Shown here: in pieces, positions 1,786 through 26,859 of the stretch
Numbering within the stretch: position 1 is the stretch's first letter
How the letters are laid out: each line of letters starts with the position of its first letter
Assembly: GCA_023476565.1 (NCBI GenBank)
Contig: JAMCVZ010000049.1
Location: 1 to 46,692, forward strand
DNA: 46,692 bases
DNA from: Nitrospirota bacterium
Lineage (GTDB): Bacteria > Nitrospirota > Thermodesulfovibrionia > Thermodesulfovibrionales > Dissulfurispiraceae
Direction: 5' to 3'
Made by a program: the position numbers and the translations under genes
The notes under the pieces: model-generated
Databases searched by the model: none
What the model was told of the DNA's origin: nothing
The model's input: only the letters and a program-made list of their open reading frames with translations

Positions 1786-1798
1786 TCTTCATTCTCCT

Positions 1799-2641
1799 TT
1801 AAATCTTTCCGCTTTTCTCGCTTCTAATCTTATCCACATACTCCTTTAGAAATGCTGCGAATATCCCTGCAAACAATGATGTTACGAATGCTGTCATCAC
1901 CATCCGTCTTCTCTGCGGTTTTATCCTTTTGTCCGGAACCTTTGGGGGATCAATAATTTTGAAGGCAAAGTTCTCCTTCACCTCTGCCATCATGGACTGC
2001 TCTATCTGCTGAGCGATTATATTGTAAATCTTATTTTTTATAAAAGGGTCCGCCGTGTCATTAAGAAGGGACTCAAGATATTTCTTGTTTGTATCGGCAA
2101 CCCGTTTTGACTCGCTGCTCATATGATTGTTAAGTTCGGTCAGCGTATAATTTAAGATCTCAGCGGCCATTTGGGGGTCTTTAAACTGCATTGAAAGCTC
2201 AATAATATTGTCTTTTTGCTTAAAATTTACTTTCATAGCGCCATGGAAAAACCGCAGACCTGCCCAGACTTTTTCGTTTTCTGATTTTTTATTTAAAGAA
2301 CCTTTTTCAAAAAATACATCAAGAAGTTTATGCCTCTTGATTATCATCTCGCGAAGGATGTTGCTGTTCAGTAGATTTACAATCTCTGTTACACTTGCGG
2401 ATACGGGCGCTGCTATGCCAAACCGGGAGGCAAGACCTGCCATGGGGGATATCTCTTTTTGCTGTGATGCAGGAGCAATAACTGCCTTCGCCTCATATAC
2501 AGGCGCCGTAAGCAACGCTGTTACTACCGAAACTGCTACGGCTATCGCGATAATAATTATAATTAGCTTTTTATGTTTTTGTATGACCTTTAGATAATCA
2601 AGTAGATTAATTTCATCAGAAAATTCTTCCTTATGTTCCAT
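1799..2641 (-). CDS. Wzz/GumC-type polysaccharide co-polymerase (chain-length determinant)
   Basis: The 280-residue protein has the classic PCP layout. There is an N-terminal amphipathic start (residues 10-22, LLDYLKVIQKHKK), a first membrane helix (~24-46) and a periplasmic, partly coiled-coil region (~50-228). A Pro/Arg-rich motif (IDPPKVPDKRIKPQRR, ~229-246) then precedes the second membrane helix (~247-264). There is no C-terminal tyrosine-kinase domain. Such proteins set chain length in Wzx/Wzy-dependent polysaccharide assembly and dock on the export channel, which is the gene immediately downstream. The start is supported by GGGAG six bases upstream of the ATG. O-antigen versus exopolysaccharide use cannot be decided from the sequence. 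Confidence 0.88.
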   Translation of the reverse strand: MEHKEEFSDEINLLDYLKVIQKHKKLIIIIIAIAVAVSVVTALLTAPVYEAKAVIAPASQQKEISPMAGLASRFGIAAPVSASVTEIVNLLNSNILREMIIKRHKLLDVFFEKGSLNKKSENEKVWAGLRFFHGAMKVNFKQKDNIIELSMQFKDPQMAAEILNYTLTELNNHMSSESKRVADTNKKYLESLLNDTADPFIKNKIYNIIAQQIEQSMMAEVKENFAFKIIDPPKVPDKRIKPQRRRMVMTAFVTSLFAGIFAAFLKEYVDKIRSEKSGKI

Positions 2642-3079
2642 ATAAACTCCCTATAGTGTCCTGTCTCATAAATAAATTTACACAATTTTGTCATTACTTT
2701 TAAGTCTCTCACAAACATTTCCAGCCCCCTTTCAAAAAGTCAGTCAGCCTTTTAATTCAGCCTTTTCCCGTTTAGCGAGGTTTTGGAACAAGCCTGTTCC
2801 CCACCGCGCTCCAGCCGGAATACACATTACCACCAACATTTCCCCCCTTTGCCTTCCACATAGTACCATCCCTCTCCCATATGATTTGAAATTAAAGGCA
2901 TTTTCATGACAGCCATTCTCCTACAATTAGACTGAAATAAGGCACTATTCAAAGCAATGAGAGTTGAGTCATAAAGACACTTTTGAGATTCATAGTTTAT
3001 ACACTTTTTTTGTTGTATTTGTCAATGCAATTTATAAATTGTGGCAAACGAAATGAAGCGGTTGTTATAGTGAATTGTT
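2642..3079. other. Gene-free interval between the export operon and an XRE gene
   Basis: About 440 bases of AT-rich sequence between divergent genes. I see no convincing gene: the short open frames have no domain pattern or ribosome-binding site. It should hold the promoter of the wzz/export operon (minus) and of the XRE gene (plus); the only clear element is the palindrome at 3028-3041. Confidence 0.5.
3028..3041. promoter_or_regulatory. 14-bp perfect palindrome upstream of XRE gene, candidate operator
   Basis: CAATTTATAAATTG is fully self-complementary and lies 38 bases before the XRE start codon. XRE repressors bind short palindromes and often autoregulate, so this is a plausible autoregulatory site. 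A TGTTATAGT string at 3063-3071 resembles an extended -10, but it is only 8 bases from the start codon, so the transcript would be nearly leaderless. Inference only. Confidence 0.35.
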
Positions 3080-3445
3080 ATGCAGAAGAAGAAGGTGACA
3101 ACAAGCAAAGACATCGGGGAAAGAATCAAAGAACGGCGGAAAGAGCTGAAGATATCACAGGAAGAACTGGCTGAAATACTGGGAGTTACTTACCAGCAGG
3201 TGCAGCGGTATGAAAACGGGACCAATAAGCTCAATGTGGAAAATATTCAGAGAATTGCCAATGCATTATCAGCGCCCTTATCGTATTTCTTTGAAGTATA
3301 TAAGATGCCGGTCATTGCAGAAGAACAAGCGCACTATGCAACACCAGCCGAGAATAAACTCCTCAGGCATTTCAGAAAGATTAGAAACAGCAATTCCCAA
3401 AATATAGTCATACAAATTGCCCGGCTCGCGGCAAAATCAGACTAA
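3080..3445 (+). CDS. XRE-family helix-turn-helix regulator
   Basis: The 121-residue protein has an HTH_3 domain at residues ~10-68 (IGERIKERRKELKISQEELA, then GVTYQQVQRYENG and an LNVENIQRIANALS helix). A ~50-residue C-terminal tail lacks a recognisable sensor domain. It binds DNA and probably represses transcription; the target is unknown. No strong Shine-Dalgarno is visible before the ATG. It is convergent with the PIN toxin gene, whose stop is 3 nt away. Its role could be local (toxin-antitoxin or polysaccharide operon) or unrelated to either neighbour. Confidence 0.85.
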   Translation: MQKKKVTTSKDIGERIKERRKELKISQEELAEILGVTYQQVQRYENGTNKLNVENIQRIANALSAPLSYFFEVYKMPVIAEEQAHYATPAENKLLRHFRKIRNSNSQNIVIQIARLAAKSD

Positions 3446-9720: not shown

Positions 9721-11295
9721 ATGTCAAGCAGATACAATGCCTTTGGCCCTTACCTCAAGAAGAGATTCGGCGCCATCGTATACAAGGTAAATGTCGATGC
9801 AGGATTCACCTGTCCCAACAGGGACGGAACCCTCGGGGTGACAGGATGCATTTACTGCAATAACGACAGTTTCCGGCCCTCGGAGTGCAGACCCGAAACT
9901 CCCATAACAGAACAGATAAAAAACGGAATAATCTATCTTACCCGGAGATATAAGGCCAAGAAGTTTCTCGTTTATTTCCAGCCCTTTACCAACACCTACG
10001 CCCCTGTAGCGGAACTGGAGCGCATTTACAGGGAAGCCCTCTCGGCTCCTTCTGTTATCGGCCTCGCAATAGGGACAAGACCTGACTGTATTGATGAAGA
10101 AAAGATAGAGCTTCTGAAAACGCTTGCAAAAGATTACTTCATCCTTATTGAATACGGACTGCAATCAATATACGACAGGTCGCTCCGGTTCATAGCCAGG
10201 GGACATGATTACCGGACATTCACTGATGCGGTAACAATGACAAAGGGGCGCGGCATACATATCGGCGCCCATATCATCGCCGGCTTTCCGACCGAAACCA
10301 GGGATGAAACGCTTGCGATGGCCGATGAGCTTTCACACCTTCCCGTGGAGTTCCTCAAAATACACCAGCTCCAGATAGTAAAGGATACGCCTCTTGCGGA
10401 CATATATTCGAGAGAGCCGTTTTACACGTTTCACTATGGGGAATACCTGGACTTCCTTGTGGATTTCATCGAGCGCCTGTCGCCTGAAATAGTCTTGCAG
10501 AGACTCTTTGCAACCTCCCCGGACAGTATTCTTATAGCGCCTCATTGGGGAAAAATAACAGAACAGATAAAAAACGGAATAATCTATCTTACCCGGAGAT
10601 ATAAGGCCAAGAAGTTTCTCGTTTATTTCCAGCCCTTTACCAACACCTACGCCCCTGTAGCGGAACTGGAGCGCATTTACAGGGAAGCCCTCTCGGCTCC
10701 TTCTGTTATCGGCCTCGCAATAGGGACAAGACCTGACTGTATTGATGAAGAAAAGATAGAGCTTCTGAAAACGCTTGCAAAAGATTACTTCATCCTTATT
10801 GAATACGGACTGCAATCAATATACGACAGGTCGCTCCGGTTCATAGCCAGGGGACATGATTACCGGACATTCACTGATGCGGTAACAATGACAAAGGGGC
10901 GCGGCATACATATCGGCGCCCATATCATCGCCGGCTTTCCGACCGAAACCAGGGATGAAACGCTTGCGATGGCCGATGAGCTTTCACACCTTCCCGTGGA
11001 GTTCCTCAAAATACACCAGCTCCAGATAGTAAAGGATACGCCTCTTGCGGACATATATTCGAGAGAGCCGTTTTACACGTTTCACTATGGGGAATACCTG
11101 GACTTCCTTGTGGATTTCATCGAGCGCCTGTCGCCTGAAATAGTCTTGCAGAGACTCTTTGCAACCTCCCCGGACAGTATTCTTATAGCGCCTCATTGGG
11201 GAAAAACCAGACAGGAAATCATTCGTGATATAGAAGAGAGGTTTGCTGAAAGAAATGCTATCCAGGGCTCTCAGTGCATATGTTGTAGGCATTGA
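9721..11295 (+). CDS. YhcC-like (TIGR01212-type) radical SAM protein with internal tandem duplication
   Basis: The N-terminus carries a radical-SAM cysteine set C31, C43 and C46 (TCPNRDGTLG then GCIYC), the spacing of the YhcC/TIGR01212 family, which would hold a 4Fe-4S cluster and cleave SAM. The family is usually ~300 residues; this frame encodes 524 because residues 62-278 are repeated exactly as 279-495 (651 bp, in frame). Removing one unit leaves a normal 307-residue protein. The second unit has no cysteine motif. The substrate is unknown. The end overlaps the start of comM. The duplication could be real and recent or an assembly artefact; a protein of this shape is unlikely to fold as one barrel. 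Confidence 0.8.
   Translation: MSSRYNAFGPYLKKRFGAIVYKVNVDAGFTCPNRDGTLGVTGCIYCNNDSFRPSECRPETPITEQIKNGIIYLTRRYKAKKFLVYFQPFTNTYAPVAELERIYREALSAPSVIGLAIGTRPDCIDEEKIELLKTLAKDYFILIEYGLQSIYDRSLRFIARGHDYRTFTDAVTMTKGRGIHIGAHIIAGFPTETRDETLAMADELSHLPVEFLKIHQLQIVKDTPLADIYSREPFYTFHYGEYLDFLVDFIERLSPEIVLQRLFATSPDSILIAPHWGKITEQIKNGIIYLTRRYKAKKFLVYFQPFTNTYAPVAELERIYREALSAPSVIGLAIGTRPDCIDEEKIELLKTLAKDYFILIEYGLQSIYDRSLRFIARGHDYRTFTDAVTMTKGRGIHIGAHIIAGFPTETRDETLAMADELSHLPVEFLKIHQLQIVKDTPLADIYSREPFYTFHYGEYLDFLVDFIERLSPEIVLQRLFATSPDSILIAPHWGKTRQEIIRDIEERFAERNAIQGSQCICCRH
9904..11206. repeat. Perfect 651-bp direct tandem duplication
   Basis: Copies 9904-10554 and 10555-11205 appear identical (their translations are identical), with one base of homology (A) at the junction. 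The unit length is divisible by three, so the radical SAM frame stays open. Contig concatenation without merging would give the same picture. Confidence 0.9.
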
Positions 11296-13107
11296 TGCAC
11301 ATCTTATCGAAGTCGAAGTCGATATAACGTCGAAAGGGCTCCCCTATTTTTCCATGGTCGGGCTCCCCGATACCGCGGTAAAGGAGAGCAAGGACAGGAT
11401 CAGGGCCGCCCTGAAAAACATCGGCTTCAACTTCCCTTTAAAGCAGATCACCGTCAACCTTGCGCCTGCAGACCTGAAAAAAGAAGGCTCATCCTTCGAC
11501 CTGCCCATAGCAATAGGAATCATCGCAGCCGAAAATATAATACGACCGGACTCCCTCGCTGACTATATCCTTGCCGGCGAACTCTCCCTTGATGGAAAGA
11601 TAAAGCCGATCAGGGGGGCGTTACCCATCGCCCTGGAGGCGAAAAGGGCCGGGATAAAAGGGGTCATTCTGCCGAACGGGAATGCGGCGGAAGCGGCTGT
11701 GGTAAGCGGGATAGAGGTGCTGTGCATGGAAAGCCTGCCCGAAGTTATCGAATTTTTGGGCGGCATATCGCAGAGAGCGCCTTTTACCGTGGACCTGCAT
11801 GCTGCAATGGCCGAGAATTCCCAGTACGAAGATGATTTCTCGGATGTCAAGGGTCAGGAGCACGCGAAGCGGGCGCTGGAGGTAGCGGCTGCCGGCTCAC
11901 ATAATATTTTGATGATAGGCACACCGGGCAGCGGCAAGACAATGCTCGCCCGGCGGCTGCCGTCAATACTGCCTCCGATGACCTTCGAGGAGGCGCTCGA
12001 TACTACAAAAATTCACAGTATTTCAGGGCTGCTGAAAAGCGGGCAGTCACTCCTTGCGACAAGGCCGTTCCGTTCTCCGCACCATACGATCTCGGATATC
12101 GCCCTGATCGGAGGCGGACAGACGCCGAGGCCGAGAATTCCCAGTACGAAGATGATTTCTCGGATGTCAAGGGTCAGGAGCACGCGAAGCGGGCGCTGGA
12201 GGTAGCGGCTGCCGGCTCACATAATATTTTGATGATAGGCACACCGGGCAGCGGCAAGACAATGCTCGCCCGGCGGCTGCCGTCAATACTGCCTCCGATG
12301 ACCTTCGAGGAGGCGCTCGATACTACAAAAATTCACAGTATTTCAGGGCTGCTGAAAAGCGGGCAGTCACTCCTTGCGACAAGGCCGTTCCGTTCTCCGC
12401 ACCATACGATCTCGGATATCGCCCTGATCGGAGGCGGACAGACGCCGAGGCCGGGGGAAGTGTCGTTGGCCCATCACGGGATACTGTTCCTGGATGAGCT
12501 CCCCGAATTCAAGAGAAATGCCCTTGAGGTTTTAAGACAGCCCCTGGAAAACGGCCAGGTAACTGTCTCAAGGGCAGCGGCAACTGTTGCATATCCCGCC
12601 CAATTCGTGCTCGTTGCGGCTATGAACCCCTGCCCCTGCGGCTATTTCGGAGACTCCCGCCACCAATGCACCTGCACTCCCGGCATGATAAACAGGTACA
12701 GGTCGAGAGTCTCAGGCCCGCTCATGGATCGTATCGATATACATCTGGATGTCCCTGCCGTGCCTTACAAGGACCTTTCAAACGATTATTCGGGGGAAAA
12801 ATCATGGCTTATACGGCAAAGGGTCACTGAAGCACGGGAAAGGCAGCTCAGAAGATTCGAGGGCGATAAAATATTCGCCAACGGCCAGATGAAGACACGG
12901 CATATGAAAAAACATTGCACTCTTACGGAAGATGCGCGCACCCTCCTTGATGCCGCCATGCAGAAGCTCGGCTTAAGCGCACGGGCATACTCGAGGATAT
13001 TGAAGGTATCGAGGACTATTGCCGACCTGGACCGTTCAGATGATATACACAATCACCATGTGGCGGAAGCAATACAATACAGAACTCTGGACAGAGGACA
13101 AATATGA
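11255..13107 (+). pseudogene. comM: comM/yifB-type Mg-chelatase-like AAA+ protein, broken by a tandem duplication
   Basis: The N-terminal part (SRALSAYVVGIDAHLIEVEV, GLPYFSMVGLPDTAVKES, VNLAPADLKKEG) is the ChlI-type domain of ComM/YifB. The Walker A GTPGSGKT, the sensor region [13 protein letters not shown] and the C-terminal CNCPCG-like Cys cluster with RAYSRILKV follow. ComM is a hexameric helicase that aids branch migration in natural transformation. A 320-bp tandem duplication (not divisible by three) shifts the frame: the first frame ends at 12205 and the second is open from 12229. Deleting one copy restores exactly 510 codons plus stop, so damage is recent or artefactual. The start at 11255 is chosen because it begins the conserved MLSRALS; it overlaps the radical SAM gene. 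Confidence 0.88.
11809..12453. repeat. 320-bp direct tandem duplication inside comM
   Basis: Copies begin at 11809 and 12129; both junctions and the end carry GGCCG (11809-11813, 12129-12133, 12449-12453), a 5-bp microhomology typical of slippage or end-joining duplication. The unit covers the Walker A region and disrupts the frame. Confidence 0.9.
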
Positions 13108-13214
13108 GAGACAAACACTAAATTCTAAAATCTAAACCCTAAACCCTAAACACGAAGCTCTAAACACCTCTTTTTAGGATTTCGTGCTTCGGATTTGGAA
13201 TTTGTTTTTTATTG
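12625..13214. repeat. Direct repeat copy A: comM 3' end plus downstream heptad palindrome (left flank of island)
   Basis: This 590-bp block matches 20765-21347. Differences seen are C/A and A/G changes early in the block (GACTCCCGCCACCAATGC versus GACTCACGCCACCAGTGC) and one extra 7-bp CCCTAAA unit here. Copy A is continuous with the rest of comM. It ends just after the stop codon of the DUF5615 gene. Confidence 0.92.
13113..13214. repeat. Heptad-periodic imperfect palindrome after comM
   Basis: The left arm reads in sevens as AACACTA, AATTCTA, AAATCTA, AACCCTA, AACCCTA, AACACGA, AGCTCTA. After a short loop the right arm, read on the other strand, gives AAATTCC, AAATCCG, AAGCACG, AAATCCT. 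The arms pair imperfectly. The matching block after the second comM end lacks one heptad. The CCCTAAA units are not telomeric; they are part of this palindrome. Confidence 0.75.
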
Positions 13215-13571
13215 TCTGACCCTAATTCTGTGAGCTTCTACCAAAAACAACTTCCCTTTGTAATGACCCATTTCAGGGTTAGCTGATAAGTAATTTTTGA
13301 ATGTTTCCATAAGTTGAGGAACAATTTCAGGATGATTTTTAACCTGCAAAGAAATGATGCCTTTATATTGCTTAGGTGGGTATGCCACAATATCAGCGAA
13401 ATCTCCATTTAAAGAAATTAGGATAGAATCTAGCTCTTGAGCTTTTGCTATTACAAACGAATCCGGCGAATCCTTTGGAAGAAAATCTCTTAAACGCAAA
13501 ACTTCATGTCCTACATCATGAAGAGTCTTAATCACTGCATTTGAAATGCAGTGATCAGCAAAGAACCTCAT
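13209..13571 (-). CDS. DUF5615-family PIN-like toxin
   Basis: The 120-residue protein begins MRFFADHCISNAVIKTLHDVGHEV and has a central ILISLNGDFADI segment. This is the pattern of DUF5615 (Mut7-C/PIN-like) proteins, usually paired with DUF433 antitoxins; the first Asp (D6) and the later Asp are the expected metal ligands. It is predicted to cleave RNA. Its start overlaps the stop of the DUF433 gene by 4 nt (ATGA). Its last codon and stop lie inside the heptad palindrome that ends direct repeat A, so the gene sits exactly at the left edge of the island. Confidence 0.82.
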   Translation of the reverse strand: MRFFADHCISNAVIKTLHDVGHEVLRLRDFLPKDSPDSFVIAKAQELDSILISLNGDFADIVAYPPKQYKGIISLQVKNHPEIVPQLMETFKNYLSANPEMGHYKGKLFLVEAHRIRVRQ

Positions 13572-13795
13572 GCCTTTGCTACTTCAAATTCTGACAATTC
13601 TCGGGCGTAATCCAGACAAGCAGATATCTGTTCCTTAGTGAGATCAGGGAACTCTCCTATTATTTCTTCAAAGGCACTGCCGTTTGCCAGATAACCGAGT
13701 ATAAGGCTAACCGGAATTCTCGTTCCTTTTATGCGGGGCTTGCCGTGGATCACATCAGGGGTGCTCACTATATGCTCTCTCCAGTTTATTTGCAT
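13568..13795 (-). CDS. DUF433 antitoxin
   Basis: The 75-residue protein matches DUF433 along its whole length: ISTPDVIHGKPRIKGTRIPV-type core (here residues ~9-29), LILGYLANGSAFEEII, and LTKEQISACLDYARE at the C-terminus. This is a winged-helix-like antitoxin that binds DNA and the DUF5615 partner encoded next. The Shine-Dalgarno GGGAGGG is 4-5 nt upstream, and an extended -10 lies 31 nt before the start. It is part of the island's left end, where it could also help retain the island by addiction (inference). Confidence 0.88.
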   Translation of the reverse strand: MQINWREHIVSTPDVIHGKPRIKGTRIPVSLILGYLANGSAFEEIIGEFPDLTKEQISACLDYARELSEFEVAKA

Positions 13796-13825
13796 AGTGC
13801 CCTCCCATCAAATAATTGATATTAC

Positions 13826-13834
13826 ATTATACCA
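13826..13834 (-). promoter_or_regulatory. Extended -10 promoter of the DUF433/DUF5615 pair
   Basis: On the minus strand TGGTATAAT is a perfect extended -10 located 31 nt upstream of the antitoxin ATG. No clear -35 is seen, as allowed for extended -10 promoters. Confidence 0.55.
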
Positions 13835-14066
13835 GATTTGCTCAACGTTCCATTATAAGCAGAACTTCGGGCATCTGACATCAGCTTCATGCCAGCCCAG
13901 GCAAGGGGAGCGCAAAGTATCGCTATCGCTCTGCTCATGCCAGAAGCAAGCCCAACGCCTTCGCTTCCTCAATGCTTGCCCTTCGCCTTGCAAGATGCGC
14001 ACACTTCAGCAAGGTTCTGCCAAGCCCCAATAATGCTGAATACAAAATTTACCTTTATATCTTTCT
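13835..14066. other. Non-coding spacer within the island
   Basis: Between the divergent toxin-antitoxin and cassette promoters lie ~230 bases with GC-richer, repetitive-looking stretches (GCTTCC/GCTTGCC, GCGCAAAG/CGCTATCGCTC). Small open frames are present on the plus strand, but none has a ribosome-binding site or recognisable domain. I see no defined element. Confidence 0.4.
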
Positions 14067-14095
14067 TTATCATATCCAACGACCTGTAGTATAAT
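14067..14095 (+). promoter_or_regulatory. Promoter of the GHKL-PRTase / receiver-phosphoesterase cassette
   Basis: TTATCA (14067-14072) and a consensus TATAAT (14090-14095) are separated by 17 bp. Transcription would start near 14102, leaving a ~114-nt leader before the ATG at 14216. The second cassette gene follows after 12 nt with its own strong Shine-Dalgarno, so one transcript probably covers both. Confidence 0.6.
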
Positions 14096-14215
14096 TACTC
14101 ACTGAACGTGAAATTTCGTTAATTTTCAATAGATAAGACAGCAACAATACTGTTAGTAACTATAGAATCGAGGCTGACTTGCATTTATGAAAGCATTGTT
14201 TCGGAAATAGTGCAT

Positions 14216-17200
14216 ATGTCGAAAAATAATCCCTTAGAGACAGTTAGCACACCCGCAGACTTCGGCGCTCCAATAGCGCGCATCATAGATGACCAGTTCA
14301 ATATAACGCTTCCTAAATATTTTCGCGATGAAGGCTGGGCCAACGGTATAGGGCTTATACAGGAAGAGATTACCCGATGGGCTGCCCAGCGCGCATTGAC
14401 CCCACGTAAAGTGATCTTTGACTTTAATTCATGCCGATGGATCGATCCGCTCCCTCTGATCTCGATTCTCTTAGAGATCGCGAATGCTCAAGCATTGGAT
14501 TTGCTTGTTGACATTCGGCTTCCAATTCCGGATGCTGGTCCAGCTCCGTCAGAAATAGGGCCTTATCAACAATCTCCAAATCGTCTGCTGCGGTTCTTAG
14601 ATCAAGAAGGGTTCCTTGATTGTTTGGAACAATTAAAGATCACGCGCTTTAATCAGCTTGATCAAAGTAGAGAAAATTATAGAAATTTACATGTCAAAGC
14701 ATCATACGAAGATGCCAGATGTATTCCGATGAGCCTTTTTATTGTGCCTCAGGAAGAGGACAGTGAATTTGCAAAAAGATCGGTTGAAATACTGCTAAAG
14801 GGTGTGGACTCAAAACTCGCTTCCAAGATTGCGCCGCAGACAAGAGACCGTCTTATCTATAAACTTCGTGTTGCAGTGCAGGAAATGCTTCATAATGCAC
14901 AGGAGCACGCCTATGAAGAAGAGACAGCTCCACGCGCACTAGGATTATATATACGATATAGAACCGGACGGTTGGGACTTGATTCTGCAGGCAGAGAAGT
15001 ATATCGAAGGCATGTTAGCGAAGAGCGCATACGCTGTCCTCAGCTTGATGTTGACTGGCTTACTCCTCGTCCAGGGTGTATTGAAGTATTCATGCTTGAT
15101 CGCGGCGTAGGTATGGTCTATCGGTTTGAACAAGCGAATGTTCAGTTGTCCGATAAATACAAGTTCAATCAAGTTATGCAAGAAGTATTTCTTGGCGGTC
15201 GCAGTACGAAACCTGAGCGACTTACTCGCTACGGTGGACTCCATCTGCTCTACAATTTACTTAATGAGACAGGCGACTACATTCGTGCGCTGGAGAATCA
15301 TATTTGGTTTGGTTGTAGCGCCCCTATTGATCGACCGACAGCTGTAACTTATTCGCTCACTGAAAAGCGAAGTCGTAGGCAAGGTCTGGCCATACATCTG
15401 CGACTGGGATGGAAAGAAGAGACTGATTATGGTGATAGGTGGGCTAAGTTTGGAGAAGGTCAGCAAAGCGAAGTGTGGCCCGAATTATGCTTAGATGAAA
15501 GTGATTGTGCATCATCCTTCAAGTGGTTCGAAAGCAAAAAGGTTCTAGACGAGCGCTTTGGCCAGCTGAAGGTATATGGGGAGCAGAGTGACTGGATTCT
15601 ATGGTTAGTCCGACCCCATCGTATGAAGTGGGACATTCTCAATTTTCTGGAATATAAAGTTGCTCCATATGCTACTGACGAAACGACACTAATCATCGCG
15701 GATATCCCAAGTTATGAAGCGGAAACCTATGCAGCTGCGCTCGATGAATTTAAGGCGCCCGGCAGTGCAGACTGGCCAAAAAAATTAGCGAGGATAATCT
15801 TATCTACAAATAGATGGCGCTTCGCTACTGTTAATTATCAGAAGCATGGGTCTAGACATGGGTTTTCAAGTCTTAAAGAAGATTTCAAGAAGGTGCAGAT
15901 TAAACACCCTACCATTACACCAAAACCGCAAACGTTCAGACTTTCAGTTGTGCGTTGGCTAAAATGGCATGACTCACGCAGACTATGGGAAGAGGTTAAC
16001 CACGGTAGATCTATGTTCATTCCTGAAAAGATTATCTGGGGGCATGACCAGACAGGCATTCCTGTCACTATAGGTGGCTATCTTGATTTCCCGCAAACAA
16101 CTCGTAATAGCCTCTGCGCTGCAATTTATAGAATATCGTTGGCTCGGGTATTGGGCGTTCTGCCGCCACACGAAGTAGACTTTTATCCATTGGATCGGTT
16201 GACCCTTCCTGTGCTGCAGGAAATTCATGCTGTTGAGGTATATGAGCCTGCCACAACCTTCCCAGGTACTCGGCTGGCAATAGGTTCAGTTCTAGTGTCT
16301 GGCTCAACTTTGGCTGCCTCGGGCGCACTGTCACTTGATCTACATTTCTTTGTCCATAATAGCAGTCCGCTGCGGAAACACAAACCTTCTCTCCTATTTT
16401 GGTTGCCAAACCAGCAACTGAGCGAGTCGGCGCCTAGACTTTCCAGGATCGGCAAAACAGCTGCAGTAGCACCTGAGGGCTGGAAGAGTTTTGAAATACC
16501 TCGGTTTGATGAAAACGGAAAATGCATTGGGTTCCGAGATCCGCAAAAGACATATCAGGACTGGCAAAGCTCAAGCCCTGTCATTGTCAAGGCTGGTCAT
16601 TGGTCATATGAAGGACATCATGATTTTCTTACCTTGAATATTGCCGCTGCTGTAGAAGCTGCTTTTCTGGAAAAGAATGATTTGGCACGTTTTCTCATCC
16701 TGACGATATTGCCATTCATCGGTATAGATAAAAGCCACATAGATAAAAATTGGCATCGCCTCCTTGACGATCACTTTGGAAAAAACTCTTCGCGTTCGAG
16801 TAATCAGGCCAAATATGGTCTTCTCGTCTATCGTTCTCATCCAACTAGCGAATTGGTTGTGCGCAAGTTATTGAATCTTCTTACACCACAGGGTCGTCAA
16901 CTTGCAATGACTAGAATTTCCCCTATTCTTCCTATTCGGGTTCGCTGGAGTGGGTCCTCACTTTTAATTCCTCCTCTGATGCGTCAAGAGATCCGCTCAG
17001 CTCTAATTGTTGACAATCAAATGCGGCCTATCTTGTTATTTGATGATGCAGCAATTACGGGGCGGACCATCCAAGATCTCCGCGCTGCTCTAAGTGCTCT
17101 TGGCGCAACGCCTATCAAAACAATGGTTATTGTTAATCGCCTACGACAACCCGCGGACGGATATAAAGAAGAGCGGGTCGACTATTATTGGCGCCTCGAC

Positions 17201-18820
17201 TTGCCAGTAATGGGCAGGGAAGGCAATTGTCCTCTTTGCCATGCGCTTAGTCTATCTGAATCTTTCTCCTGTTCACTATCTGCACCATATGCCAAAGAAG
17301 AGATCAGACATTGGGGCTATCGATGGGGTTCTGCCTCTCCATTAAATAATTGGAGCAGGGGGTTACGTCCGCTGCCATTGGTCAATCCTGAAATGGCGAC
17401 AAGATATTGTTACCGTCAGAGTCCAGAAACATTGAACGAGGAAGCAAAGCATTTGGCGAAAATCGATCTCATCCGATCAACAGGTTTGGCCCTCCACGTG
17501 GCAGAACTACACGCGATGACGGGGAGGGACGACTACTGTCTAAAAAAGATCAGGGAGCACGGTGAACCCGAAATACGATGTGAACTGGCTGCTAGTCAAC
17601 TGCTCCTTTTTGGGAATGAGTTTGATCTGGATGTGCGTGTTGAGCTTGTTAAAATTCTCATCCGCGAACTATCGCGATTAAAGGAGCATTCTCCCCATGC
17701 GCCATTGGCAGCTTTGGCAGCAATGTATGGGCTTGGTCTGCTTGACACGACTGCCAAACGCCAAGCCGCCAATGCAGTCATTGAGTATGAGAAAGAAAAA
17801 TTAAACTATGTTACAAAAGTACTATTAGCTTACCTAACCTCAGAGGAGCTAATTAGTCAAGATTCAATCGCCTATAAAATAGGCAAAAGATTGCTTTCGA
17901 CAGCCTCGTGGTCATTATCTCAGCGGTTAACTGCTTGGTTCCTTGAGCATCTTTCACCGCGGGGCAATGCTCACTCCGAGGCGATTCCCTTGCTCATTGA
18001 CGATTTGGCTCAAGCATCCACTATTAATGATGTTCGAATTAAAGACGCTTTGGACAGTTTAGATCATTTGGCGGATATAGTTGATGGCCTTGAAAGCGTC
18101 TTAGTTCGCAAGGAAGCGTCGGATACCTTCGGAGATAAGACTGCTGCGATGAAGAAGAATGCTGAAATGGTCCGTGAATTAATTACTCGCAGTAGCTCCG
18201 ATCGTTTGCAAGCTGGTTGGCGTGAGAACACAAAACACGCACTGGAAACGTATGTGGCATCAATGAAAGCTGTTGCTGATGCTTTCTTTCATCGAATCCC
18301 GCTGACAAAGGAATATTGGAGAGACCGCACTTTTGAGACCAAGGCACTTACTCAGATAATTAAGCGAATTGAGTGGAAGGGAGCTAGCGATGGAAAGGTT
18401 TGTAATGGTAATTTTGTCGAATCGCGTAAGCGTTCAATTAAGTTCAGCTTATCCGGTGCTCTCAATTTTGACAGCAGCTCCGGAGAAGTGTGGATCACTT
18501 GGCATCGTGGGATTGCCGGAATAGTCTTGGATCTTCTGAGAAATGCTGTCTATTCTACGTCTGTAATAATTGATCCTTGGGATCCTGGGCGGCAGGAGTA
18601 CGCTGACCTATGGGTACGTGTCGATTATGAGACAAAAGCTGTCACAATGATTTTTACTAACGCATCGGCATGTAATTCCACAACTGTACTCCCTAAATTG
18701 AAAAAGCACAGATGGTCTCATTTAACTGCAATTGGTGGCAGTGTTGAGCCAATTGATCTGACAGATAAAATTCTTGGCATTCGTATAAGCATCCCTTATG
18801 CAGCTTATTTGGGTGCTTAA
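14216..18820 (+). CDS. Giant STAS-like/GHKL ATPase/phosphoribosyltransferase/GHKL protein (unnamed family)
   Basis: The protein is 1534 residues. Residues ~30-105 resemble a STAS-type sandwich (KVIFDFNSCRWIDPLPLISI). Residues ~215-360 form a GHKL ATPase: N-box VQEMLHNAQEHAYE, G1 box MLDRGVGM, and GGRSTKPERLTRYGGLHLL. Residues ~865-1000 form a type I phosphoribosyltransferase fold with PRPP loop ILLFDDAAITGRTIQDL (~938-955), followed by CPLC and a nearby Cys that could bind zinc. Residues ~1070-1380 are helical, HEAT-like. Residues ~1425-1534 resemble a second, degenerate GHKL fold (AGIVLDLLRNAVYSTS, then LWVRVDYETKAVTMIFTN). A weaker VLVSGSTLAASG at ~692-704 may be another PRPP-loop relic. 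No membrane segment. ATG 14216 has GGAAA 8 nt upstream; a GTG six bases earlier is less likely. I cannot name the family; a sensor-switch producing or releasing a nucleotide signal is inference. Confidence 0.8.
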   Translation: MSKNNPLETVSTPADFGAPIARIIDDQFNITLPKYFRDEGWANGIGLIQEEITRWAAQRALTPRKVIFDFNSCRWIDPLPLISILLEIANAQALDLLVDIRLPIPDAGPAPSEIGPYQQSPNRLLRFLDQEGFLDCLEQLKITRFNQLDQSRENYRNLHVKASYEDARCIPMSLFIVPQEEDSEFAKRSVEILLKGVDSKLASKIAPQTRDRLIYKLRVAVQEMLHNAQEHAYEEETAPRALGLYIRYRTGRLGLDSAGREVYRRHVSEERIRCPQLDVDWLTPRPGCIEVFMLDRGVGMVYRFEQANVQLSDKYKFNQVMQEVFLGGRSTKPERLTRYGGLHLLYNLLNETGDYIRALENHIWFGCSAPIDRPTAVTYSLTEKRSRRQGLAIHLRLGWKEETDYGDRWAKFGEGQQSEVWPELCLDESDCASSFKWFESKKVLDERFGQLKVYGEQSDWILWLVRPHRMKWDILNFLEYKVAPYATDETTLIIADIPSYEAETYAAALDEFKAPGSADWPKKLARIILSTNRWRFATVNYQKHGSRHGFSSLKEDFKKVQIKHPTITPKPQTFRLSVVRWLKWHDSRRLWEEVNHGRSMFIPEKIIWGHDQTGIPVTIGGYLDFPQTTRNSLCAAIYRISLARVLGVLPPHEVDFYPLDRLTLPVLQEIHAVEVYEPATTFPGTRLAIGSVLVSGSTLAASGALSLDLHFFVHNSSPLRKHKPSLLFWLPNQQLSESAPRLSRIGKTAAVAPEGWKSFEIPRFDENGKCIGFRDPQKTYQDWQSSSPVIVKAGHWSYEGHHDFLTLNIAAAVEAAFLEKNDLARFLILTILPFIGIDKSHIDKNWHRLLDDHFGKNSSRSSNQAKYGLLVYRSHPTSELVVRKLLNLLTPQGRQLAMTRISPILPIRVRWSGSSLLIPPLMRQEIRSALIVDNQMRPILLFDDAAITGRTIQDLRAALSALGATPIKTMVIVNRLRQPADGYKEERVDYYWRLDLPVMGREGNCPLCHALSLSESFSCSLSAPYAKEEIRHWGYRWGSASPLNNWSRGLRPLPLVNPEMATRYCYRQSPETLNEEAKHLAKIDLIRSTGLALHVAELHAMTGRDDYCLKKIREHGEPEIRCELAASQLLLFGNEFDLDVRVELVKILIRELSRLKEHSPHAPLAALAAMYGLGLLDTTAKRQAANAVIEYEKEKLNYVTKVLLAYLTSEELISQDSIAYKIGKRLLSTASWSLSQRLTAWFLEHLSPRGNAHSEAIPLLIDDLAQASTINDVRIKDALDSLDHLADIVDGLESVLVRKEASDTFGDKTAAMKKNAEMVRELITRSSSDRLQAGWRENTKHALETYVASMKAVADAFFHRIPLTKEYWRDRTFETKALTQIIKRIEWKGASDGKVCNGNFVESRKRSIKFSLSGALNFDSSSGEVWITWHRGIAGIVLDLLRNAVYSTSVIIDPWDPGRQEYADLWVRVDYETKAVTMIFTNASACNSTTVLPKLKKHRWSHLTAIGGSVEPIDLTDKILGIRISIPYAAYLGA

Positions 18821-18832
18821 AAAGGAGGCAAA

Positions 18833-20302
18833 GTGGCTTACAGAATAATGATAATTGACGACGCACCGAGTCGCCGAAAAGAACAATACATGGAAGTTTT
18901 CTCTATCCCGGAATTTGAGCCGTTGTATATATGGACCCACAGGGATTTTGAAAAATATCGAAATACACCAGTTGATGGTTATGTCATTGATGTGTTTCTC
19001 GATGAAGGCGATTGGTCAAATATTAACGCGGCTGAACTATTAAAGTCATCTATACAAGAGGCACCCCGTGCTGCCCCGATTTTTCTCATTAGTCAGCTGT
19101 GGGGTGACGAAAGAGTTCTTGAAATCCTCAAGCAAGTCGGAGAGTCGTCAGCCAAAGTGGTCCAGTACCTTGCTTGGAGCGAGTTCATACAAGCCACAGG
19201 ACAGGACGAGGCAGCTAAGGCCAGAATGGATGCGCTACGTAACAAGCTTTTATTTGAGCTTGACCATTGGCATGGGCGAAGCGGCTTTAGACCTAACCCT
19301 GACGATGCCATTCGTATCCTTCTTCTGGCAGACGTTCAGTTTGGTGATCCTGCGACAGATCCAAAAGCCACATTCGCTGAGCACTGGATTGTCCGTGCAT
19401 TAAGACAAGAGGGTCTATTGCCGGACCTGATAGTTGTGGCGGGTGACTTAAGCCACAGTGGGAGGCCTGATCAGTTTCTGCTTGCCGAAGAGCGGCTTGC
19501 TCTCGATCTTATTGGTCCACTATGGGGCAACACTAACATTGAACGAATGCGTGATAGAATTGTTCTCGTGCCTGGAAATCACGACGTCAATTTACGGTTC
19601 TCCGCATGTGACAAGCGTAAATTTAACTTGGAAACTAAAGATTTTGAGACTGACAATGTCCCTGCATATGTGGCCGGTTCTACGCATTCTCCGCGACACC
19701 ACGACTATGCGCTTGAACCTTTTCGTCGCTTTGCTCATCGTCTCACGAGCGATAGGAACTGGGCTATTTCATCAAGTTTGTCATGGGTCGATCGCCGTTT
19801 CCTACACTGCGGTATTCGTTTTTTTGTCATGAACAGTGTAGCTGAACTTGGCGCGGACACTCCAGATCATGCATCCTTTAGCGAATCTGCTCTGAGAGAA
19901 ATAAATCGTAGTCTCGGAGACGACGATCCTGAAGCAGTATTTAGTATTGCTATATCCCATCATGGCCTTCGTTCAGAAGGTGCCTCCACAAAGGAGCGTC
20001 AGGTGGATAATTGGCTTACTGTAGGGCGTGATGTCTTCTCGATGCACAAGATTCGTCTTTGGCTTTATGGGCACTACCATGAATTTGATGCTCGTTCACT
20101 CAATAGCGAACCGTTCGACAAAGCACCACTTTGGCTTGTGCAAGCACCTACTTCAAGAATCGGCTTCTCAACCCGTGGATTTTGCGTTATAGAACTTATC
20201 AGGGAGAAAGGCAACGTCATTGATGCCCATGCTCACCATTATGTCCTTGAAAAAAGCACTACAACAAAGAAAAGTATACGGAAAGTCTTTGCTAAAGGGT
20301 AA
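18833..20302 (+). CDS. Receiver-like domain fused to calcineurin-type metallophosphoesterase
   Basis: The 489-residue protein has a receiver-like N-terminus (~3-120): acidic pair IIDDAP (D9, D10), candidate phospho-acceptor D53 in YVIDVFLDEGD, and FLIS at ~84-87. The usual Lys is not obvious. Residues ~160-440 are a calcineurin-like phosphoesterase: LLLADVQFG (D167, with Gln where the first His usually stands), VVAGDLSHSG, VPGNHD, ISHHGL and YGHYHE. It would hydrolyse a phosphodiester, perhaps a cyclic nucleotide or nucleic acid. It starts at a GTG with AAAGGAGG 5 nt upstream, 12 nt after the giant gene, so the two form a transcription unit. The receiver half suggests phospho-relay or docking control by the GHKL partner (inference). 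Confidence 0.82.
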   Translation: MAYRIMIIDDAPSRRKEQYMEVFSIPEFEPLYIWTHRDFEKYRNTPVDGYVIDVFLDEGDWSNINAAELLKSSIQEAPRAAPIFLISQLWGDERVLEILKQVGESSAKVVQYLAWSEFIQATGQDEAAKARMDALRNKLLFELDHWHGRSGFRPNPDDAIRILLLADVQFGDPATDPKATFAEHWIVRALRQEGLLPDLIVVAGDLSHSGRPDQFLLAEERLALDLIGPLWGNTNIERMRDRIVLVPGNHDVNLRFSACDKRKFNLETKDFETDNVPAYVAGSTHSPRHHDYALEPFRRFAHRLTSDRNWAISSSLSWVDRRFLHCGIRFFVMNSVAELGADTPDHASFSESALREINRSLGDDDPEAVFSIAISHHGLRSEGASTKERQVDNWLTVGRDVFSMHKIRLWLYGHYHEFDARSLNSEPFDKAPLWLVQAPTSRIGFSTRGFCVIELIREKGNVIDAHAHHYVLEKSTTTKKSIRKVFAKG

Positions 20303-20321
20303 CAATTTATTGACGTATTTC

Positions 20322-20732
20322 TTAGATTAGATCTTCAAGAAACTTTTTAATTTGTAGTAGATTCCTTTCGCACGGCTTCACTCGTCCGCTCAACCAGTCC
20401 TCTAACTGCTCCGGGTCCCGGCCCATAAGCGGCCCCAGCCGTCTCAGTGAAAGGCCTGTGACCTTCTTGAAGTAAGCCAGTCTTCCCACAGGATCGTCAG
20501 GACACTCCCAGGGCACATATCCGAGAAAAGCGAGGACGGCCGGAATGTGGATCAACTCCGGCTCGGTCCCGTGCTCCCAATTCCACACGGTGGATTCGGT
20601 AACGCCGATCTCGACGGCAACTTCGATCTGCAGCAGGCCCAAGTCAAGGCGTCTCTTCCTGATGTGCTCTCCGAGGGACCGGGGTTCTAAAGGGTAGCCC
20701 TTGGGTGGTATAATACGGCGTGGCAACGTCAT
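20322..20732 (-). CDS. Helix-turn-helix protein (XRE-like) at the island's right end
   Basis: The product has the pattern LGEHIRKRRLDLGLLQIEVA, then GVTESTVWNWEHG, IPAVLAFLGY and a C-terminal second helical repeat (LSLRRLGPLMGRDPEQLEDWL). This is a widespread solitary HTH family with two helix-turn-helix-like modules. The likely start is the Met at 20732 (136 aa), because the longer frame to 20798 runs into direct repeat B and is non-native. It is convergent with the cassette (19-nt gap). Its upstream region is cut after ~32 bases by the repeat, so the native promoter is probably gone. It might regulate the cassette or be a passenger. Confidence 0.72.
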   Translation of the reverse strand: MTLPRRIIPPKGYPLEPRSLGEHIRKRRLDLGLLQIEVAVEIGVTESTVWNWEHGTEPELIHIPAVLAFLGYVPWECPDDPVGRLAYFKKVTGLSLRRLGPLMGRDPEQLEDWLSGRVKPCERNLLQIKKFLEDLI

Positions 20733-20764
20733 CCTATATTGCGGATACTTTGCAAAGGTGTCCA

Positions 20765-21247
20765 AACCCCTGCCCCTGCGGCTATTTCGGAGACTCACGC
20801 CACCAGTGCACCTGCACTCCCGGCATGATAAACAGGTACAGGTCGAGAGTCTCAGGCCCGCTCATGGATCGTATCGATATACATCTGGATGTCCCTGCCG
20901 TGCCTTACAAGGACCTTTCAAACGATTATTCGGGGGAAAAATCATGGCTTATACGGCAAAGGGTCACTGAAGCACGGGAAAGGCAGCTCAGAAGATTCGA
21001 GGGCGATAAAATATTCGCCAACGGCCAGATGAAGACACGGCATATGAAAAAACATTGCACTCTTACGGAAGATGCGCGCACCCTCCTTGATGCCGCCATG
21101 CAGAAGCTCGGCTTAAGCGCACGGGCATACTCGAGGATATTGAAGGTATCGAGGACTATTGCCGACCTGGACCGTTCAGATGATATACACAATCACCATG
21201 TGGCGGAAGCAATACAATACAGAACTCTGGACAGAGGACAAATATGA
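20765..21247 (+). pseudogene. comM C-terminal fragment (right copy)
   Basis: The block encodes the last ~160 residues of ComM ([13 protein letters not shown] through the final LDRGQI) with no N-terminus. An open frame reaches back to an ATG at 20720 within the island, giving a chimeric 175-codon frame whose first ~15 residues are not ComM. It is a remnant of the duplicated target, not a functional gene. An extended -10 (TGGTATAAT, 20706-20714) happens to precede it. Confidence 0.88.
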
Positions 21248-21347
21248 GAGACAAACACTAAATTCTAAAATCTAAACCCTAAACACGAAGCTCTAAACAC
21301 CTCTTTTTAGGATTTCGTGCTTCGGATTTGGAATTTGTTTTTTATTG
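20765..21347. repeat. Direct repeat copy B: comM 3' end plus heptad palindrome (right flank of island)
   Basis: This copy is 583 bp and matches 12625-13214, minus one CCCTAAA heptad and with two base changes near its left end. It ends one base before the AGGAGG of the GalT-like gene, which shows that this intergenic sequence is the native comM downstream region. Copy A therefore lost its native right neighbour when the island arrived. Confidence 0.92.
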
Positions 21348-25722: not shown

Positions 25723-26859
25723 ATGAGTGAAACTGTTAAAAAACTCAATTATTCAACTCTAATCTCTGATCTTGCCTCTCTCATTGAGCAAGGGCGCAGA
25801 ACAGCAGTTCGCTATGTAAACACTGCTCTCGTGACCACCTACTGGCTTATCGGCAGAAGAATTGTCGAATATGAGCAAGGGGGAAAAAAGCGAGCCCAAT
25901 ACGGAGAAGCATTGCTGAAAAGATTGTCTTCTGATCTGACTTCACGATTTGGAAAAGGATTTACAGAAAGGAATATAGAGCATATGCGGCAATTCTATTT
26001 GAGCTATCCTGAGATTTCGCACACTGCGTGTGCGAAAATATCAAAGAAAGCAGATAGAAAATCGCACTCAGTGCGTGCTGAATTAGCACCCACTTCCCAA
26101 TCAATGTCTGTATTTTCCGAGGCGTTCTTTAGAAGATTCTCTCTGTCCTGGTCCCACTATCGATTGCTTATGCGCCTTGATGAGGCTCACCAGCGAGAGT
26201 TCTACGAAGCAGAATGCAAAAGAGGAAACTGGTCGGTAAGACAACTCGACAGGCAGATTCAATCTATGCTTTACGAGCGCACCGCATTATCCAAGAGAAA
26301 GTCAGCAGTTATTGCAAAAGCTCACGAAAAACCCGTCGTCCTGAAGCCGGAGGACGAGATAAAAGACCCCTATGTACTGGAATTCCTTGGATTAAAAGAC
26401 GAATACTCCGAATCACAACTAGAAGAGGTATTGATTCAATATCTTGAACGCTTTCTTCTCGAACTCGGCACAGGGTTCACCTTTGTCGCCCGCCAGAAAA
26501 GGATAACCCTTGAGGGAAGACATTATCATATCGATCTGTTACTCTACCATCGAATTCTAAGATGCCTGGTAGCGGTGGATTTAAAGATCGGCGAACTCAC
26601 TCACGCAGATGCAGGACAAATGAACCTCTATATCAATTACCTGAAGGATCGGGAGAAGCTGCCCGAAGAGAATGAACCTATAGGAATCATCCTCTGCACT
26701 GATAAAAAGAGAACCATTGTCGAGTATGCATTGGGCGGAATAAGCAATAAGATATTTGCCTCAAAGTATCGGCTGCAATTGCCAGATCCTGCGGTCCTCA
26801 AGACCGAAATAGAGCATGAACGACGAAGGCTTGTCGAGATGAAAATAGTTGAGCAATAA
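25723..26859 (+). CDS. DUF1016/YhcG-type PDDEXK nuclease-domain protein
   Basis: The 378-residue protein has the N-terminal DUF1016 helical domain (NTALVTTYWLIGRRIVEYEQ-type, ~35-55; GKGFTERNIEHMRQFY, ~85-100) and a C-terminal PDDEXK fold (~215-350). Its active-site strand has D in HIDLLLYH and D-x-K in AVDLKIGELTHADAGQMNLY. The family is scattered, mobile and predicted to act on DNA, with unclear roles in mobile-element biology or defence. Here it interrupts the Kdo operon between kdsD and kdsC, so it looks like an insertion. Residues ~99-128 form a polar, palindrome-encoded insertion. It ends 141 nt before kdsC. Confidence 0.85.
   Translation: MSETVKKLNYSTLISDLASLIEQGRRTAVRYVNTALVTTYWLIGRRIVEYEQGGKKRAQYGEALLKRLSSDLTSRFGKGFTERNIEHMRQFYLSYPEISHTACAKISKKADRKSHSVRAELAPTSQSMSVFSEAFFRRFSLSWSHYRLLMRLDEAHQREFYEAECKRGNWSVRQLDRQIQSMLYERTALSKRKSAVIAKAHEKPVVLKPEDEIKDPYVLEFLGLKDEYSESQLEEVLIQYLERFLLELGTGFTFVARQKRITLEGRHYHIDLLLYHRILRCLVAVDLKIGELTHADAGQMNLYINYLKDREKLPEENEPIGIILCTDKKRTIVEYALGGISNKIFASKYRLQLPDPAVLKTEIEHERRRLVEMKIVEQ
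26015..26089. repeat. Palindrome cluster inside the DUF1016 coding region
   Basis: Three hairpins lie in 75 bp: TTTCGCACAC/GTGTGCGAAA with a 3-nt loop (26015-26037), CGCACT/AGTGCG with a 1-nt loop (26063-26075), and GTGCT/AGCAC with a 5-nt loop (26075-26089). They encode a variable linker just before the conserved SWSHY segment and keep the frame. Confidence 0.6.

Follow-up and report, generated by a model that had tools for sequence, protein, structure and literature searches.

A horizontally mobile gene pair joining a giant STAS-GHKL-phosphoribosyltransferase protein to a receiver-phosphoesterase, a candidate immune or stress module

A coupled gene pair in a Nitrospirota island

The window analyzed here is the whole stretch of 46,692 nucleotides of contig JAMCVZ010000049.1 (GenBank assembly GCA_023476565.1), from a Nitrospirota bacterium of the Dissulfurispiraceae. 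In an island of this window, between comM (yifB) and galT, lie two consecutive genes encoding a giant protein with STAS-like, GHKL and phosphoribosyltransferase (PRTase) domains and a smaller partner in which a receiver is fused to a calcineurin-like phosphoesterase (Table 1). Both genes had been proposed in an earlier reading of the DNA made without database searches (the sequence-only reading), together with a 12-nt spacing and a strong ribosome-binding site; all of these are present, and the second start, at 18833, is preceded by AAAAAGGAGGCAAAGTG in the window sequence. The two genes are thus predicted to form one operon. Promoter and terminator scans gave no excess over shuffled sequence, and no RNA families were found in the island.

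Domain architecture of the giant protein

None of the single-sequence models of Pfam, NCBIfam, PADLOC and PHROGs recognizes the giant protein; its best Pfam match, HATPase_c_2, is weak (E 0.0084). Its domains were assigned using an alignment with homologues that are 24-31% identical to the window protein, sequence profiles, and fold comparison of a structure model of residues 1-1061. This model, which underlies the STAS and GHKL fold matches, is poor, with a mean predicted local distance difference test score (pLDDT) of 34.7. For these two domains we therefore leaned on sequence conservation too. For the same reason the middle of the protein (residues 380-860) was left without assignment, and a viral fold search was uninformative.

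Residues 16-150 match SpoIIAA, RsbS and stressosome STAS proteins in fold comparison, with Z of 7.6-7.9. In the alignment, W77 and D79 of this STAS-like domain are invariant, and all three homologues have Pro80 at what we take, from general knowledge of the motif, to be the position of the phosphorylated serine of classical STAS domains. Because proline stands at the expected serine position in 3/3 homologues, the fused STAS domain is unlikely to be a phosphorylation substrate.

The GHKL region, residues 168-376, resembles the anti-sigma-factor kinases RsbW and SpoIIAB (Z 11.0, 111/113 residues, root-mean-square deviation 2.4 A). Its characteristic boxes are conserved: E225, N229, H233, A234, Y235, D297, G299, G301, T339, R340 and G343 are invariant in 3/3 homologues. 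The sole natural PDB match of the sequence profile of this region is RsbW (E 0.4), aligned on the N-box. Pfam gives no match to a HisKA-type domain, and the best fold matches of the low-confidence model are serine kinases. The DUF4325 STAS-GHKL proteins of the phylum were considered as close relatives of the N-terminus and rejected, the best E being 0.2.

Further along the protein, residues 872-997 or thereabouts are predicted to adopt a type I PRTase fold with a DD-x(3)-TG loop for phosphoribosyl pyrophosphate (PRPP). D945-D946-A-x-x-T950-G951 is invariant among the homologues, and 17 of the 18 PDB matches of the profile of this region are phosphoribosyltransferases, including PyrR, HGPRT and PurF. 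The top match, isocitrate lyase, was judged spurious because the PRPP loop is missing from that enzyme. Weak genome-wide matches fall nearly all at the same loop, on short frames of PRTase size, and the homologue from a viral contig (L004, see below) matches the defense toxin ShosT (PADLOC, E 3.7e-5) and ComF. Membership in PF15609 (Ter-associated PRTase_2) was rejected at 12.9 bits against a cut-off of 28.8 bits, and the pair gene is not among the PF15609 matches in its own genome.

Two other parts of the protein are distinctive. An invariant motif, G-H-W-x-Y-x-x-H-H-D, precedes the PRTase, and its pattern, searched in viral contigs, matched the L004 contig alone. The C-terminal 480 residues contain no explained domain. 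A second GHKL domain at residues 1400-1534 was rejected as unsupported: when its profile was compared with that of the first GHKL, the probability was 0.3% over 12 columns, covering an N-box-like stretch only, and this end of the protein was never folded. The order of the giant protein is therefore STAS, RsbW/SpoIIAB-like GHKL, middle, PRTase and unexplained C-terminus, and not GHKL-PRTase-GHKL. Of the sequence-only reading, the PRPP-binding PRTase stands on its invariant loop and profile matches, the STAS-like start and the GHKL ATPase hold with the reservation that attaches to the poor model, and the second GHKL end finds no support.

The receiver-phosphoesterase partner

The partner was modeled with a mean pLDDT of 60.8. 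Its receiver region, mostly at 56-85, forms a (beta-alpha)5 receiver that matches the receiver domain (REC) of ArcA over 121/122 residues (Z 13.7), and D9, D10, D53 and S87 are invariant across the three homologues. Residues 158-489 match YydB (Z 12.4, 259 residues, root-mean-square deviation 4.8), and the protein is recognized by Pfam as Metallophos (E 3e-11). The predicted metal residues D167, D205, N249-H250, H376, H414 and H416 are likewise invariant in the three homologues; the partner conforms to the predicted metal-site motifs of calcineurin-like phosphoesterases, namely D-x-H/Q, GD, GNHD, H and GHxH. The receiver-like domain joined to a phosphoesterase, as originally proposed, is thereby confirmed in both of its halves.

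Conservation and distribution of the pair

A class search returned a full-length relative of the giant protein, 30-31% identical over 1500 residues, in a genome of another family of the same order (locus L002, genome G147). The next gene there encodes a partner homologue with 32-35% identity. A third pair, of 1553 and 501 residues, was found by a profile scan of viral contigs (locus L004, IMG/VR contig IMGVR_UViG_3300037692_000500); its proteins align with those of the window at 24% (giant) and 21% (partner) identity. The large gene comes first in 3/3 loci, and the junctions are a 12-nt gap, an 8-nt overlap and a 4-nt overlap. The pair is thus conserved at 20-35% protein identity, and its retention in identical order at three distant loci is far beyond chance.

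The distribution is sparse. The pair is present in 2/396 genomes of the phylum and absent from the congener G001. Genome contigs were scanned with single-sequence patterns, no profile search took in other phyla, and the homologue profile was run on viral contigs; back-translated patterns of single sequences gave no relative in GTDB genomes, nor did the plasmid and phage collections contain relatives of the giant protein. In L004 the pair comes immediately after a bona fide Gabija system, GajA (1e-199) and GajB (3.5e-131); a tyrosine integrase and a phage replisome organizer are also next to it. Homologues residing mostly as single genes in core genomes had been named in the sequence-only reading as the pattern that would speak against a stress or defense system. 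Among the homologous loci found there are no single-gene homologues (3/3 carry the pair), their occurrence is patchy, and one abuts Gabija.

As an observation in its own right, positions 386-3080 of the L004 contig, which is viral or prophage in character, hold a compact Gabija system directly upstream of the pair, with a GajA of 539 and a GajB of 381 residues.

The island and its setting

The island is bounded by two direct repeats. Two substitutions and one 7-bp indel separate the copies, so a simple assembly echo does not explain the duplication. In the relative G012, comM lies directly beside galT; that is, the insertion site is empty there. The GC content at third codon positions (GC3) is 0.40-0.41 in the pair and 0.58-0.62 in core genes. 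The pair is horizontally mobile and has foreign codon use. The island and its toxin-antitoxin neighbors, both noted at the outset, are accounted for by the comM-galT site and by a DUF5615/DUF433 gene pair between the repeats.

Table 1. Positions of the gene pair, its domains and motifs, and the surrounding features in the window
Feature	Position	Strand	Details and basis
Giant-protein gene	14210 (GTG) or 14216 (ATG)..18820	+	1536 aa, or 1534 aa from ATG; open reading frame calls
STAS-like domain	14255..14659	+	giant residues 16-150; fold comparison and alignment; low-confidence model
GHKL ATPase/kinase domain	14711..15337	+	giant residues 168-376; alignment, profile, fold
GHKL boxes			N-box E225/N229/H233; G1 box D297-G299-G301; TR-GG 339-343
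Invariant motif G-H-W-x-Y-x-x-H-H-D	16595..16624	+	giant residues 796-805; upstream of the PRTase in the protein
Predicted phosphoribosyltransferase domain	16823..17200	+	about giant residues 872-997; profile and alignment
PRPP loop			ILLFDDAAITGRT, giant residues 941-953
Intergenic gap	18821..18832	+	12 nt, AGGAGG ribosome-binding site
Receiver-phosphoesterase gene	18833..20302	+	GTG start, 489 aa; receiver residues 1-150, calcineurin-like phosphoesterase 158-489
Island between comM (yifB) and galT	13215..20764		repeats, empty site, GC3
Left direct repeat	12625..13214	+	590 bp, comM 3' end and intergenic; 98.5% identity to right copy
Right direct repeat	20765..21347	+	583 bp, comM 3' end and intergenic
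DUF5615 PIN-like toxin candidate	13209..13571	-	neighbor; not conserved with the pair
DUF433 antitoxin candidate	13568..13795	-	neighbor
Helix-turn-helix (HTH) regulator	20322..20798	-	start uncertain; native-like GC3 0.635

Several other features of the surroundings were recorded. A YhcG-type PDDEXK nuclease (25723-26859; PADLOC PDC-S02, E 3e-142; GC3 0.446) is inserted in a kds/lipopolysaccharide (LPS) cluster, 5.4 kb to the right. An exact tandem duplication of 652 bp (100%) at 9904-11206, within a radical-SAM-like gene (9721-11295), is either real or an assembly artifact. Another, of 325 bp, lies at 11809-12453 inside comM/yifB and breaks the frame, so that comM is split in the assembly. 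In the congener G001, which has no cassette, a sequence upstream of galT (L063, 2556-2645) resembles the N-terminus of the island HTH regulator (63% over 30 residues) and is possibly the remnant of an earlier insertion.

Related phosphoesterases in conflict-type loci

Outside the family, the closest phosphoesterases retrieved come from conflict-type loci. A GAAD adaptor is fused to a related phosphoesterase in Simplicispira and in one Rhizobium record; in Simplicispira and in another Rhizobium record, a gene annotated GASH adjoins one. On a Pseudomonas plasmid a related phosphoesterase precedes a HATPase_c_3 protein, and in Nostoc NACHT genes lie beside one. Calcineurin-like phosphoesterases are the commonest variable effector of GAP1-N1 systems (PMC7159879), and mutation of the metallophosphatase site abolishes defense by DS-8 and DS-9 (PMC13092281).

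Two of the loci encountered merit separate mention. In the P. aeruginosa plasmid NZ_MT732187.1 (L053, 6995-10764), the phosphoesterase gene overlaps by 1 nt the gene of a 772-residue HATPase_c_3 GHKL protein, and this is possibly another undescribed GHKL-phosphoesterase pair. In genome G271 (L097, 1750-6775), an HTH-GHKL-DUF4325 protein is encoded about 540 bp upstream of a 1136-residue protein headed by a phosphoesterase and of a DNA methylase-like gene; by analogy, a regulator resembling CapK may here adjoin a phosphoesterase effector.

Proposed mechanism and alternatives

For the kinase half of the pair, the nearest precedent in the literature is CapK/VapK, in which a STAS-GHKL kinase phosphorylates a partner STAS protein and so frees an operon or the VapC toxin; single-stranded DNA activates CapK in vitro, and VapKSC confers protection from a phage (PMC13373217). 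In the pair described here, a receiver takes the place of the STAS partner of VapKSC and a phosphoesterase that of its PIN effector. This substitution is the basis, by analogy, of the chain that we propose. A role in stress or defense is most likely for the pair. More specifically, we give about an even chance to the view that the pair is a horizontally mobile immune or stress module of two components, with a STAS-GHKL switch that would act through the receiver on the phosphoesterase and arrest growth. The analysis shows the domains, the conserved active-site residues, the strict pairing, the mobility and, at one homologous locus, the contact with Gabija; the trigger, kinase activity, receiver gating, substrate and defense outcome are inferred. 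The giant protein would be both sensor and switch, its N-terminal STAS and RsbW-type GHKL unit binding ATP. As with CapK/VapK, the trigger might be single-stranded DNA or some other mark of damage or of infection by phage. Once triggered, the unit would change state or become an active kinase, and would act on the partner receiver, either by phosphorylation at D53 or by docking. This input would release or activate the fused phosphoesterase, which may then cleave a nucleotide or nucleic acid and halt growth, so that the infected cell releases no phage. The PRTase would most likely be a second nucleotide-consuming effector, or else a gauge of PRPP or nucleotides that sets the switch; the data do not decide between these.

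Several observations weigh against this proposal. RsbW kinases phosphorylate serine and not the aspartate of a receiver, which would make phosphotransfer to Asp53 unusual; the actual signal may instead be docking. Pfam gave no match to a HisKA-type domain. The usual receiver lysine is absent in 2/3 homologues, and the first phosphoesterase motif is DxQ in 2/3 homologues and DxH in the third. The N-terminal fold assignments derive from the poorly predicted model. In addition, the link of the whole pair to defense genes comes from one homologous locus, L004; the L002 pair lies where its contig ends, and the genes on its other flank are core genes.

Three other explanations were weighed. The PRTase could make a ribosylated or nucleotide-like messenger that the receiver-phosphoesterase destroys, the level of this private second messenger controlling other genes, so that the pair would be a stress regulator and not a killer. 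The intact PRPP loop and phosphoesterase metal site in all homologues agree with such make-and-break signaling, as does the lack of a separate target or toxin gene conserved with the pair; however, no downstream effector that could read the messenger is conserved either, and the relatives of the phosphoesterase are effectors in other conflict systems. We consider this explanation unlikely. The sequence-only reading had likewise envisaged one protein that senses and another that makes or destroys a signal or nucleic acid. Its grouping of an ATP switch, PRPP chemistry and phosphodiester cleavage in one unit on an island stands, while the phosphoesterase is better read as a gated effector and not as a signal maker.

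It is less likely still that the pair has no antiviral role, the giant protein reading PRPP or ATP and tuning the phosphoesterase for metabolism, with the island as a mere vehicle. PRTase and GHKL are ligand-binding folds, their motifs are conserved here, and direct contact with defense genes is seen in 1/3 loci only; the adjacency to Gabija in a viral or prophage contig, the very patchy presence and the conflict-type phosphoesterase argue the other way. Least probable, in our estimate, is a toxin-antitoxin arrangement akin to VapKSC, in which the giant protein inhibits a constitutively toxic receiver-phosphoesterase that is freed by phage damage to the giant protein or by loss of ATP. Translational coupling, the fixed large-then-small order and the control of toxins by STAS-GHKL proteins in VapKSC (PMC13373217) would fit, whereas the receiver suggests switching through that domain and not simple sequestration, and the size ratio is unusual for an antitoxin.

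If the proposed STAS-GHKL-receiver-phosphoesterase module is real, an undescribed and rare two-gene module would be added to the bacterial immune repertoire, with a CapK/VapK-type STAS-GHKL switch rewired to a receiver-controlled phosphodiesterase. The pair would also be tractable for studying what a PRTase inside its own sensor does in defense, a question shared with ShosTA and type III retrons. That it embodies a new immune signaling logic, in which an anti-sigma-factor-type STAS-GHKL unit of the serine-kinase class signals to a receiver and not to a STAS protein, while a PRTase within the sensor links PRPP or nucleotide chemistry to a receiver-gated phosphodiesterase in one machine of two proteins, is a more tentative proposition, which we rate as rather doubtful.

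Comparison with known systems

As in CapK/CapS and VapKSC (PMC13373217), STAS is followed by an RsbW-type GHKL, here a low-confidence fold with invariant motifs, and a partner is co-encoded. In those systems the partner, a STAS protein, is phosphorylated on Ser/Thr, whereas here it is a receiver-phosphoesterase and the fused STAS has Pro80. They act through a PIN RNase or an operon downstream, and here the effector would be a phosphoesterase; moreover, the present kinase unit forms the N-terminal part of a 1536-residue protein that also has a PRTase. No VapC-type PIN is part of the operon, the DUF5615 gene being divergent and on the other side, and none was recognized beside the L004 pair or, at L002, on the side covered by sequence. 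Without a STAS partner and a PIN effector, the pair is not VapKSC.

Detocs is a two-component defense system composed of a GHKL protein, an effector in which a receiver is fused to a nucleoside phosphorylase, and a third, receiver-only gene. The pair resembles it in combining a GHKL protein with a receiver-fused enzymatic effector, and differs from it in the presence of PRTase and STAS domains and in a phosphoesterase as the effector. A HisKA-type match did not come up in Pfam. No third receiver-only gene was recognized in the island, next to the L004 pair or within the sequenced flank of L002, and for this reason the pair is not Detocs. Fig. 6F of PMC13092281 carries HATPase and REC labels and was considered as possibly showing the present system; the text links that figure to nucleotide enzymes, e.g., a purine phosphorylase, which suggests a Detocs-like system more than the pair described here.

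The phosphoesterase domain is related to those of DS-8 and DS-9 (PMC13092281; NCBIfam NF053861 and NF053862), with E of 2e-6 to 8e-16 against these models. The window partner reaches 47.5 bits (E 1.2e-12) against the 420-bit cut-off of the DS-9 model NF053862, and the phosphoesterases of the pairs reach 25.6-57 bits against the 790-bit cut-off of DS-8. DS-8 carries a fused NACHT, for which Pfam gives no match here, and DS-9 is paired with a HAD phosphatase, whereas the partner here is the giant protein; the pair, far below both cut-offs and differently partnered, is neither. The GTPase-centered GAAD/GASH conflict systems (PMC7159879) also employ the calcineurin-like phosphoesterase as a common interchangeable effector, but place it under a GAAD adaptor and GTPases, in contrast to the receiver and GHKL kinase seen here. 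ShosTA and the PRTase effectors of type III retrons (PMC9122126, PMC12548924) likewise use a PRTase in phage defense. Theirs stands alone with DprA or belongs to a retron, while here it is embedded in the sensor protein; as no DprA was recognized among the island open reading frames, the pair is not ShosTA.

The pair thus lies outside VapKSC, Detocs, DS-8, DS-9, ShosTA and PF15609, in keeping with the initial statement that no named system with this exact pair was known. By analogy, it would be a CapK/VapK-like controlled effector system in a new arrangement.

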